Origin: a virus
IMG/VR virus record: IMGVR_UViG_3300042296_000166
Span: 1 to 25,999 of that record
DNA length: 25,999 nucleotides
Reading direction: 5' to 3' (one strand)
Position numbers and translations under genes: made by a program
Shown: in pieces, positions 6,552 to 12,906 of the stretch
Layout of the letters: the number at the start of each line of letters is the position of its first letter
Numbering within the stretch: position 1 is the stretch's first letter
Notes under the pieces: model-generated
What the model saw: only the letters and a program-made list of their open reading frames with translations
What the model was told of the DNA's origin: nothing
The model's database searches: none

Positions 6552-6780
6552 TCCTGTACGACTCTTCACCATTTCGGTAGTCGTGCCCTTGGACAGCATC
6601 GTAGGCAACAACGTCACCCTTATGTATATGCTCAGCAACTAAATCGCTGACCTCTATAACCTCTGCCTCCTGGTAACGCTGCTTTACAATCTCAGCTCCA
6701 GTGAGTAACAACCCACTCGCGCTCTTTTGCTGCTCTACAACTAGAGGCTTAACTACAATAAAACTATTTAACGCTTTCAT
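6517..6780 (-). CDS. groES: Phage co-chaperonin GroES
   Basis: The 87-residue product shows the GroES frame: MKALNSFIVVKPL at the start, SASGLLLTG (mobile-loop region, about 21-29), EAEVIEVSD, then KGDVVAYD (54-61) and the closing YRIIQYRDVALIL. Typical GroES has about 95 residues, so this is slightly short. It would cap the GroEL ring during folding of client proteins in the cytoplasm. It follows groEL with a 17-base overlap, the reverse of the bacterial groES-groEL order. The mobile loop differs from the host type, which fits a dedicated phage pair. Confidence 0.9.
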   Translation of the reverse strand: MKALNSFIVVKPLVVEQQKSASGLLLTGAEIVKQRYQEAEVIEVSDLVAEHIHKGDVVAYDAVQGHDYRNGEESYRIIQYRDVALIL

Positions 6781-8362
6781 TCTCTCTTACATTTGTGATT
6801 ATCGCATTCGTACTAAGGATCGTAGTGGCCACAGATACAGCATTCTTAAGCGCGTTCTTAGTTACCTTCGCTGGATCAATAATACCCATCTTCACCATGT
6901 CACCTGTCTTCTTATCCTTCACGTTGTAACCCCTGCCTACACTACCATCGTCAAAGAACTTCTCGTAGTCCAACACCTCGTTGCCATCAACGCCAGCGTT
7001 CTCACAGATCTTATGGAATGGAGCCTCGCACGCCTGAGACATAATGTCCAACGCAACTGATGGGTTACCGTTAACCATAGCTTTAGACGCTGTAAACGCC
7101 ATCGCGTTCACAAGTCCTACACCACCACCAGGAAGCACACCATCCTCAATCGCAGCCTTAACAGCCAGCACCGCATCGTCAACACGATCCCTCAACTCCT
7201 TCTGCTCGATGTCTGAACTAGCACCAACGTAGATCATACCTACACCTCCTGAGATAGAGGCAATTCGTTCGTCCATGAACTTAAGGTTCTCCTCCAACGT
7301 CTCCTCCCACTTGCTCATCTTAAGCTCCTTAACGTATGCATCAAGGTCCTCATCAGTGCCCTCGTGACGCACAATGATCGTACTGTCCTGACTAACGATG
7401 ATCTTCTTCGCCCTGCCAAGTCCTGACACCGTACACAACGCTAGGTTGTCACCAGTAGACTCTGAGTAGTAGTGAGCACCCAATGCCTTGGATATATCTG
7501 TCATCATCTCGTCCTTACGGTAACCGAAATTAGGTGGGATAATGTTACATACCTTGATCTTGCCCTGCACAACGTTCATGTTAAGTGTAGCTGATACCTG
7601 TGGTGACAGCTGACCTACAATAAGCAATGGCTTACCTTCCTTCAACACATGAGCCAGTACGTTCTCTATGTTAGATAGATTATTAATCTCATGATCCGTA
7701 AGTAACACATACGCATCCTCCATCACGCACTCCATCTTCTTGTGATCCGTAACGTAGTACTTAGATGTCCACCCCCTGGCAACACGGATACCCTTAATAA
7801 CCTCAGAGTATGTCTTCGTGGTCTTAGAGTTCTCTACAATAACATGGCTAACCTGTGAGTACACATCAGCGATCAACTTACCTACAACTGGATCATTGTT
7901 CGCAGAGATCGTCGCTACATCAAGCAGCCTCTTACCACTGACCTTCTTAGACATACGTCCAAGCTCCTTCACTACATCGTCTGCAATTGATTGGATCTGT
8001 CTTAGTACCTCAGTCTTGCTGTGCTTGTCTACATCAAAGTAGTCCTCGAACGCATCGATAATAGCCTTGGTAAGCACAATACTAGTCGTAGTGCCATCAC
8101 CTGCCGACGAAGCCGTCTTAGATGCTGCCTCCCGTACTAACTGTACCGCTAAGTTCTCTACTGGATCGTACAAGTTGATTGATCGTGCGACAGTCACACC
8201 ATCCTTTGTAACAGTCACACCTCCTATGTGGTGTTCTGACTCTATTAATACCGTCTGACCTGATGGCCCTAACGTAGATGAAACTGCTGCTGATATCTTG
8301 TCGATGCCATTTTTCAGTTTCTTACGTCCACTTTCATCTAAAAATATCTGTTTTACTACCAT
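6764..8362 (-). CDS. groEL: Phage chaperonin GroEL
   Basis: The 532-residue product is a full-length group I chaperonin. Visible landmarks are LGPSG (31-35), TKDGV (52-56), the nucleotide-binding GDGTTT (88-93), and RVDDAVLAVKAAIEDGVLPG followed by GGVGLVNA, which contains the aspartate equivalent to the catalytic D398 of E. coli. The C-terminus ends TNVRENESVK and lacks the Gly-Gly-Met tail of bacterial GroEL. It probably folds phage proteins, perhaps the capsid or tail proteins encoded nearby. It is the first gene of a two-gene operon under a consensus promoter at 8382-8412. Confidence 0.95.
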   Translation of the reverse strand: MVVKQIFLDESGRKKLKNGIDKISAAVSSTLGPSGQTVLIESEHHIGGVTVTKDGVTVARSINLYDPVENLAVQLVREAASKTASSAGDGTTTSIVLTKAIIDAFEDYFDVDKHSKTEVLRQIQSIADDVVKELGRMSKKVSGKRLLDVATISANNDPVVGKLIADVYSQVSHVIVENSKTTKTYSEVIKGIRVARGWTSKYYVTDHKKMECVMEDAYVLLTDHEINNLSNIENVLAHVLKEGKPLLIVGQLSPQVSATLNMNVVQGKIKVCNIIPPNFGYRKDEMMTDISKALGAHYYSESTGDNLALCTVSGLGRAKKIIVSQDSTIIVRHEGTDEDLDAYVKELKMSKWEETLEENLKFMDERIASISGGVGMIYVGASSDIEQKELRDRVDDAVLAVKAAIEDGVLPGGGVGLVNAMAFTASKAMVNGNPSVALDIMSQACEAPFHKICENAGVDGNEVLDYEKFFDDGSVGRGYNVKDKKTGDMVKMGIIDPAKVTKNALKNAVSVATTILSTNAIITNVRENESVK

Positions 8363-10839: not shown

Positions 10840-11600
10840 CTGCAAAAAAAAATATTTTTTTTATTTTTTCCTACTACTACTACTATATATATACTAATTT
10901 TTTTTTTATTTATAATTGGTAAAAAAGTCAACATCTTAACACTAAAAACACTAAAACCTTTACTACGACTGGGCTGTAGGAGTTTTGCATGTAACATCAA
11001 CTCAGCACAAACCGACACTAAATCGGGCTTTTCAACAAATTCTAACATCTTTTTTCGGGGGTCGCATATTCGGGGGTAGTGGGTAATATACCCATTTGAC
11101 GTAAGCACCCATCAAACGAAAACCGATCAAAATCCAGGTGGGGGGTATCGATTTTGGATAAATGCATGGAAGTTTTTAGCTTTTTGTTGAGGGGGCGCAT
11201 AGGTAGGTAGGTAGCACTCTACGCGCGCGCGCACATGTGTATGTATATAGATGGGTACAGCTGTAGGTATATAGATAGACCTACCGACGTACATACGTAT
11301 GTATGTGCCGACGATCATTCGATCAACCATTCTATTTAACATAATGTAAATTATAGGACAAGAAGATCAAACACCAGGCAACACGATCAATCGTTCAACC
11401 AATCGGCATGCCGTTCGTTCGTTCGGTGATCATAGGCGCACATCCTTAGATGTTGAATAACCCCATCAACCCCCCAAACCACGAAAAATCTAGCAAAATC
11501 CGACGTAATATCCGCATAACTATCTGAGGATCAGTAGATAGATATGTATAAAAGCAAATTGTAACATGTATTTTTATTTAGAATGAGTATAAATAAGCTA
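10840..11600. other. Non-coding control region with AT-rich tract and simple repeats
   Basis: No convincing gene is present. The region holds A/T runs (10842-10870 and 10897-10912), a CTA microsatellite running into TATA (10871-10894), GTAGGTAGGTAG (about 11201-11213), a CGCGCGCG run (about 11222-11231), a TACATACGTATGTATGT dyad (about 11291-11307) and GTTCGTTCGTTCGG (about 11413-11426). Imperfect repeats CGATCATTCGATCAACCATT and CGATCAATCGTTCAACCAAT lie near 11311 and 11383. Open frames here are low-complexity. It may contain an origin, recombination or termination sequences, but nothing specific is recognised. Confidence 0.6.
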
Positions 11601-11810: not shown

Positions 11811-11967
11811 TATACATTGGGTGCACATTCTTGTCGGGAATGTGGGAACACTGAATTAATAGACGGCATGTAGTACTTTGTACGTGACATGCACACATGG
11901 TGCAATTGATACGATCAACTAGTCAGAGCGAAACTGATTGCACCACTAACCAAATAAAATAAACACC

Positions 11968-12338: not shown

Positions 12339-12443
12339 ATGAGCAAGATCATTAAAATTGAGGGAGCATATGAGATCATAGGCTTTTTCGTAGAGGGTAA
12401 ATTAGTAAGCACAACTAAAAGAAGAGTAACTAACTGGAAATAG
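12339..12443 (+). CDS. Very small hypothetical early protein (34 aa)
   Basis: The ATG lies nine bases after an exact AACCAAATAAA element. The product is MSKIIKIEGAYEIIGFFVEG followed by KLVSTTKRRVTNWK, which looks like a short beta-hairpin plus a basic tail. Support comes from the shared leader and spacing. Function is unknown. Confidence 0.55.
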   Translation: MSKIIKIEGAYEIIGFFVEGKLVSTTKRRVTNWK

Positions 12444-12468: not shown

Positions 12469-12633
12469 ATGAAAATCGAAAAAATAATTCAAGAGTATAA
12501 GTTTATTAAGTTAGTTAAAACAGAAATGATAATGGGGGGAAATTATGCCGTAATTAATGGCGATAGAGCAAAAACAGGTCTAACATTAGATGCGGCTTAT
12601 GATCTATTTAAATTATTAAAAAAACTAGGTTAA
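12469..12633 (+). CDS. Small hypothetical early protein; stop codon inside ribozyme stem
   Basis: The 54-residue product begins MKIEKIIQEYKFIKLVKTEM and ends with an amphipathic helix (LDAAYDLFKLLKKLG). Its final GGT codon and TAA stop form the 5' strand of stem I of the hammerhead ribozyme that follows. Ribosomes finishing this gene would thus disturb the ribozyme fold, and cleavage would leave this gene on the upstream fragment with a 3' structured tail. The family is not recognised. Confidence 0.65.
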   Translation: MKIEKIIQEYKFIKLVKTEMIMGGNYAVINGDRAKTGLTLDAAYDLFKLLKKLG

Positions 12634-12706
12634 CTGACGAGTCTTGAATAGACGAAAGCAATTAAATGAACGGATGTTCAGCCATGCGAATGGTTTGCTA
12701 TTAACC
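12628..12706 (+). ncRNA. Type I hammerhead ribozyme
   Basis: All hammerhead elements are visible in order. Stem I 5' strand GGTTAA (12628-12633); core CTGACGA (12634-12640); stem II GTCT/AGAC (12641-12644 with 12650-12653) with loop TGAAT; core GAA (12654-12656); stem III AGCAA (12657-12661) with TTGCT (12695-12699), enclosing two hairpins, TGAAC-GGAT-GTTCA (12667-12680) and CCAT-GCGA-ATGG (12682-12693, a GNRA loop). Then A17 (12700) and stem I 3' strand TTAACC (12701-12706). The cut-site triplet is CUA, with predicted cleavage between 12700 and 12701. Every invariant core base is present. Open stem I makes it type I. Confidence 0.93.
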
Positions 12707-12723
12707 AAATAAAACCAAACGAC

Positions 12724-12906
12724 ATGACAAATATAGCATTTAGAGATATCGCAGGCGGAAAGATTCACGTGTACACGGCAAACCAGGATTTACCAAAGAA
12801 CGAACGAATCAAGGTAGCATTGGAAGAATTGAAGCCAATGGGTAATATTGTAATCTACCTATACAAAAGAAGAAAGTTTAGAATTATTAAAGTAAAGAGA
12901 TATTGA
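12724..12906 (+). CDS. Small basic protein downstream of the ribozyme
   Basis: The 60-residue product begins MTNIAFRDIAGGKIHVYTAN and ends in a basic stretch (LYKRRKFRIIKVKRY), possibly nucleic-acid binding. Its ATG is 23 bases after the hammerhead cut site and 10 bases after an AACCAAATAAA element. Cleaved mRNA would begin UUAACCAAAU with a 5'-hydroxyl, so expression of this gene is the one most directly affected by the ribozyme. The family is not recognised. Confidence 0.7.
   Translation: MTNIAFRDIAGGKIHVYTANQDLPKNERIKVALEELKPMGNIVIYLYKRRKFRIIKVKRY

Follow-up and report, generated by a model that had tools for sequence, protein, structure and literature searches.

Hammerhead ribozymes have been described in phages before; some of them cleave in vitro, and one also does so in E. 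coli, according to the sections of PMC3088659 drawn on here. Perreault et al. 2011 proposed, in the same sections, that phage hammerheads cut long transcripts into gene-length mRNAs (PMC3088659), so that both these RNAs and the mRNA-processing idea are already known. In the haloviruses HF1 and HF2, a hammerhead variant (HHphage) lies 13 nt upstream of the start codon of an early gene, and a mapped mRNA 5' end is at most 3 nt from the cut (PMC3088659, same sections). Natural ribozymes that are switched by a separate aptamer are almost unknown, though easily engineered, and the one natural allosteric ribozyme is the c-di-GMP-II aptamer associated with a group I intron (PMC10043782).

Here we describe a type I hammerhead between two small genes of a viral DNA (IMG/VR record IMGVR_UViG_3300042296_000166, positions 1 to 25,999; this whole stretch of 25,999 nt is hereafter called the window). 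Like the phage and prophage type I hammerheads of Perreault et al. 2011, as far as the sections used here describe them, it belongs to a group with a common core and topology, positioned between genes and often present several times per genome. Unlike that set, it carries a conserved three-way-junction domain in stem III, and the account of HF1 and HF2, which are haloviruses, has no comparable domain in those sections. A separate folded domain on a ribozyme stem is a feature shared with engineered aptazymes and with the c-di-GMP-II-group I intron; unlike the latter, the window encodes a putatively self-cleaving hammerhead in phage mRNA, and its regulation is putative. The open-access literature gave us no phage hammerhead in which stem III carries a domain or a stop codon is built in; this absence is not proof, and the conserved domain of stem III seems not to have been described. 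The ribozyme and its surroundings consist of the following features.

12469 to 12633, plus strand: upstream ORF, 54 aa, no known family; its stop TAA (12631-12633) lies within stem I
12628 to 12633, plus strand: stem I, 5' strand GGTTAA (sequence and alignment)
12634 to 12640, plus strand: catalytic core CTGACGA (C3-A9), invariant in the alignment except at the N position
12641 to 12653, plus strand: stem II GTCT/AGAC with loop TGAAT (sequence and alignment)
12654 to 12656, plus strand: core G12 A13 A14 (sequence and alignment)
12657 to 12661, plus strand: stem III, 5' strand AGCAA, with A15.1 at 12657 (sequence and alignment)
12662 to 12666, plus strand: stem III insert, junction strand TTAAA, in 29/29 genuine matches when this strand was unconstrained
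12667 to 12680, plus strand: insert hairpin 1, TGAAC-GGAT-GTTCA, 5/5 pairs changed on both sides and 100% paired
12681 to 12694, plus strand: insert hairpin 2, GCCAT-GCGA-ATGGT, GCC/GGT invariant and inner part variable
12695 to 12699, plus strand: stem III, 3' strand TTGCT, with U16.1 at 12699 (sequence and alignment)
12700 to 12701, plus strand: predicted cleavage site between A17 (12700) and U1.1 (12701), from hammerhead numbering on the sequence
12701 to 12706, plus strand: stem I, 3' strand TTAACC, whose AACC is the start of the leader element (sequence)
12703 to 12713, plus strand: leader element AACCAAATAAA, with further copies at 11948, 12319, 13023 and 13923
12724 to 12906, plus strand: downstream ORF, 60 aa, no known family; its ATG lies 23 nt 3' of the cut

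Inspection of the sequence showed a complete type I hammerhead at 12628-12706 (plus strand), its core intact, the RNA order being GGUUAA-CUGACGA-GUCU(UGAAU)AGAC-GAA-AGCAA-[UUAAA UGAAC(GGAU)GUUCA GCCAU(GCGA)AUGGU]-UUGCU-A-UUAACC. The CUGANGA...GAA core, the A15.1-U16.1 pair and an NUH cleavage triplet (CUA, with H17 = A12700) are all present, stems I, II and III each show compensatory changes, and stem I is open to the flanks, as in type I. Every element that an earlier, sequence-only reading had listed (stems I-III, CUGACGA, GAA, A15.1-U16.1 and CUA) was thus found in place. That reading had also proposed two computational checks. RNA folding placed the hammerhead fold level with the minimum free energy, at -17.0 kcal/mol. 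The covariance-model search, in contrast, gave nothing at the Rfam gathering score: RF00163 reached 16.4 bits (E 0.26; cut-off 34) and misplaced stem III and the 3' side. In formal terms this matches one half of what that reading would have counted as refutation. Because the 33-nt insert in stem III cannot be placed by the 45-position model of this family, we take the sub-cut-off score to reflect the model and not the fold. RF03152 (RAGATH-1-hammerhead) gave no match to the window at E up to 10, and the RNA is not assigned to that family. Both families have the same core and stem order as the window hammerhead, and the ordinary hammerhead of a sister phage, L132, scored 30 bits against RF03152 (E 0.0012; cut-off 56.3).

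In an alignment of 17 relatives, 96% of cells were paired, compared with 78% in shuffles and 35-49% in slid controls. Compensatory changes on both sides were found in 17 of the 23 pairs of the whole ribozyme, comprising 5/6 in stem I, 3/4 in stem II, 4/5 in stem III and 5/5 in insert hairpin 1. A covariance model built from these relatives scored the window, itself one of the 17 training sequences, at 90 bits. Insert-type hammerheads scored 79.7-94 bits, whereas no ordinary phage hammerhead exceeded 44. The training set contained most of the highest-scoring sequences or near-identical ones; L285, which was found later and lies outside that set, scored 72.9 bits. Taken together, the RNA at 12628-12706 is almost certainly a real hammerhead. 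No close DNA relatives of the window were found in the phage collection; an identical copy of the locus is present in a second contig of 50 kb (L003), which has no second hammerhead.

The position of the ribozyme follows a rule that is common among phage hammerheads. We collected 142 non-redundant complete hammerheads from the fetched viral loci, 120 of which had enough flanking sequence for a junction test, a junction being defined by an upstream stop codon within -30 to +20 of the core together with an ORF that begins with AUG 8-70 nt past the cut. Hammerheads lay at such a junction in 91/120 cases versus 8% at random positions, in a set whose loci are not independent (relatives of the window are included) and whose ORFs were called mechanically; a single one of the 120 was inside a long ORF. 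Stop codons ended most often at +4, where the UGA is that of CUGA itself (29 cases), and at -5, where a UAG shares the first base of stem I (29 cases), followed by position 0, where a UAA closes stem I (13 cases). In all, the stop overlapped stem I or the core in 78/121 (~64%), and start codons peaked 20-26 nt after the cut (60/114). The built-in stop and the frequent 20-26 nt start spacing, quantified here over the 142 viral hammerheads, go beyond Perreault et al. 2011 in the sections consulted. The annotated genome of a cultured isolate, Cellulophaga phage phi19:3, provides an independent case: an ordinary hammerhead lies between gp051 and gp050, and the end of gp051 falls within its stem I (L292 4768-4820, corresponding to KC821608.1 21769-21817, minus strand); this phage offers a practical test system for the junction rule. 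With its stop in the ribozyme and its start commonly 20-26 nt after the cut, the rule turns the question of what phage hammerheads do into a precise and testable one. We also observed that the phage contig pieces L030 and L053 each carry five to six hammerheads of the ordinary type, all on one strand and separating successive genes.

The window ribozyme obeys the same rule, which bears out the inter-cistronic placement claimed for it by the sequence-only reading. As that reading had stated, the UAA of the upstream ORF closes the 5' strand of stem I, and the predicted cut lies 23 nt before the downstream AUG at 12724. It also lies two bases before the leader element, which starts at 12703. Copies of AACCAAATAAA are located 20-22 nt before five start codons of the window, and the ribozyme is present at only one of the five, so that the cut falls two bases 5' of a standard leader. 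Stem I therefore pairs with the AACC of an element that other genes of this phage also use. Hammerhead identity and inter-cistronic placement were accordingly well supported, while the conserved domain in stem III, the most unusual feature of this RNA, had been overlooked.

This domain, the 33-nt insert, forms a second three-way junction made of stem III, the strand UUAAA, hairpin 1 and hairpin 2. Hairpin 1 has 5 bp and a loop RNAU, and hairpin 2 has the form GCC..GGU with a variable interior; the RNAU loop and GCC..GGU were found in 14/14 distinct domains. As the scan patterns had fixed TTAAA, the AT of the loop and GCC, each was relaxed in turn as a control. With the UUAAA strand left free, it was kept in 29/29 genuine hammerhead matches, the other six matches not being hammerheads. 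With hairpin 1 and GCC left free, one new variant appeared, L285, which has UUAAA, the loop GUAU and GCC..GGGU. Hairpin 1 was fully paired in 12/12 matches inside hammerheads and in 0/18 outside them. Matches outside hammerheads were thus chance matches only, and in bacterial genomes the sole match (L271, Idiomarina) had no hammerhead fold on inspection. A 12-codon AUG...UAA reading frame inside the insert of the window was also considered and rejected: it is not conserved, and the ATPase group described below has UAG in place of the AUG.

The insert domain occurs in ~35 viral contigs with 14 distinct domain sequences, and each sampled contig has exactly one insert-type hammerhead, accompanied by zero to three of the ordinary type. 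The domain is carried by at least two kinds of phage. The first kind includes the phage of the window. The primase of the 50-kb contig with the identical locus has relatives in phages of Flavobacterium, Nonlabens, Polaribacter, Cellulophaga and Bacteroides, and the host is thus most likely a member of the Bacteroidota. Among these Bacteroidota phages, the gene after the insert hammerhead varies; its products include a WYL_2 protein, a 41-aa probable membrane peptide and a 235-aa phrog_2554 protein. The second kind has GGAGG in its start regions and an AAA+ ATPase (phrog_1297, as in N4-like phages) after the ribozyme. In this N4-like group, the same ATPase (45-99% identity) comes either immediately after the insert hammerhead or with roughly one small gene in between, and no proteins shared with the phage of the window were detected.

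Several further structures were seen in these phages. At L076 2796-2877, a second hammerhead of the same phage has a stem III insert (UUUAAAAUAGGUAUC...ACCCAGAAAUGGG) that resembles the domain; it scores like the ordinary type (40.5 bits) and may be a copy that has diverged or is decaying. The phage of L076 also has, at L322 4073-4103, a hairpin of 10 bp with a run of eight T behind it, which resembles an intrinsic terminator; it separates the insert-type hammerhead, which it adjoins, from the ATPase gene. In L214 (5125-5170) and its relatives in the ATPase group, the RNA immediately 3' of stem I is able to fold into a hairpin that covaries (GUUAGCAUUUCUGCUAAC and variants); after cleavage, the downstream mRNA would be capped by this hairpin at its 5' end.

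We propose that the early mRNA of a Bacteroidota phage is cut between cistrons by a type I hammerhead and that a regulatory domain has been added in stem III of this hammerhead, a combined reading that we hold to be evenly poised between right and wrong. Its best-supported part is inter-cistronic mRNA processing, which is probably the role of the window ribozyme. Self-cleavage at 12700/12701 would give the upstream message a 2',3'-cyclic phosphate end, and the next AUG would be preceded by a 23-nt leader that carries a 5'-OH and begins with UUAACCAAAUAAAACC. In the uncut RNA, stem I would hold the start of the leader (AACC), and cutting followed by release of the 6-bp strand would free the leader for initiation. 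A ribosome terminating on the UAA in stem I would cover the 5' half of the ribozyme and delay its folding. The position of the stop in stem I or the core (78/121) is compatible with such ribosome blocking; the same pattern could also arise from tightly packed genes and from the UGA that is fixed in the core.

For the stem III domain, we suggest that it binds a small molecule, an ion or a protein, and that this binding would govern both the extent to which the short stem III forms and the rate of cutting. Judged from sequence, a regulatory function of the domain has an even chance, and a small-molecule aptamer is possible, if on the doubtful side. Unpaired insert bases that are conserved across unrelated phages have the expected look of a binding site, which makes a regulated hammerhead the most interesting reading. 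Moreover, the insert is an independent, conserved, folded domain on a catalytic stem, as in an aptazyme. The loops of stem II are similar in insert-type and ordinary hammerheads of the same phages, which suggests that the insert is an addition and does not replace the usual stem I/II contact; the loop of the window ribozyme, UGAAU, is of the same type as ordinary phage hammerhead loops, and an A (76%) precedes stem I. The domain has no match among known aptamer families: Rfam gave no family for the insert with curated cut-offs or with permissive filters, and three domains searched alone matched none at E up to 3. We regard the insert-type RNA as a candidate allosteric hammerhead; a conserved, covarying stem III domain in different phages is a concrete candidate for a natural switchable hammerhead. 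In its fullest form, the proposal is that this would be the first natural ligand-controlled hammerhead, with a stem III aptamer in unrelated phages through which a signal of the infected cell adjusts how polycistronic mRNA is cut; we offer it tentatively, as rather unlikely to hold in full. Against regulation, the varying downstream genes and the presence of either hammerhead type before the same gene are unlike a pathway-specific riboswitch.

The latter observation also bears on a reading without any ligand, in which the insert has a structural role only: it would be a three-way junction that folds by itself and stabilises the short stem III, and the RNA would be a constitutive inter-cistronic hammerhead like the others. 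The insert domain indeed folds alone as drawn, and the same gene follows the insert type in one phage and the ordinary type in another (L216/L243 and L285/L270). Folding predicted core sequestration in several insert-type groups, but the low computed stem III probability of insert types was largely matched by random stems of equal GC, which behave as the native ones do. As this control weakened the folding signal, a core-sequestering switch was dropped as evidence, and a built-in off-state is not supported. Ordinary phage hammerheads, however, work with simple variable hairpins, so that nothing requires such a module, and the invariant unpaired UUAAA and RNAU, in one copy per sampled contig, suggest a specific role. 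Overall, we consider a purely structural insert somewhat unlikely.

A special case of the regulated hammerhead is that the insert is the site of a phage or host protein, which would control cleavage or cap the upstream message at its 3' end. Proteins often bind short hairpins whose loop bases are invariant, and the diversity of downstream genes is more readily reconciled with a general phage signal than with a metabolic one. Such a protein would have to be widespread, because the domain is found in phages that have no detected shared proteins and that use different translation signals, and this explanation is in our estimate unlikely.

Exchange of DNA between phages could also account for the distribution of the hammerhead, if it were a mobile or recombinational punctuation cassette that travels harmlessly with exchangeable small genes. 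L132 is ~97% identical in DNA to the window over most aligned stretches but lacks the 54- and 60-aa genes that flank the ribozyme; in this sister phage, an ordinary hammerhead and then another small gene come after the gene at 12339. The adjacent genes are exchanged, and the ordinary hammerhead stands at the neighbouring junction. L243 and the window share almost only the hammerhead DNA, which is 91.5% identical, whereas the shared proteins are just 44-56% identical. These comparisons suggest that the ribozyme and small genes recombine as modules. However, compensatory changes over deep divergence, and the way the hammerhead stays linked to the ATPase of the N4-like group, require selection on the RNA, and a mere cassette is improbable. 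Finally, a chance resemblance, for which the Rfam score under the gathering cut-off and the frequent chance occurrence of the CTGANGA..GAAA pattern could speak, is ruled out by the comparative evidence, and that or a dead relic has a negligible likelihood given the intact core, the covariation and relatives at 73-94 bits.

Two further features were noted in the window. On the reverse strand at 11327-11358, in a non-coding stretch before the early genes, there is a dif-like Xer recombination site, TTGTCCTATAA-TTTACA-TTATGTTAAAT, whose arm TTATGTTAAAT is identical to the XerD arm of E. coli dif. The relatives L132, L243, L176, L320 and L152 keep TTATGTTAAAT, and the spacer and the other arm vary; the site may be a phage attachment or dimer-resolution site. 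On the minus strand, 6764-8362 encodes a phage GroEL-like chaperonin (phrog_5725, Cpn60_TCP1), and such a chaperonin is also found beside the early region in MW202828.
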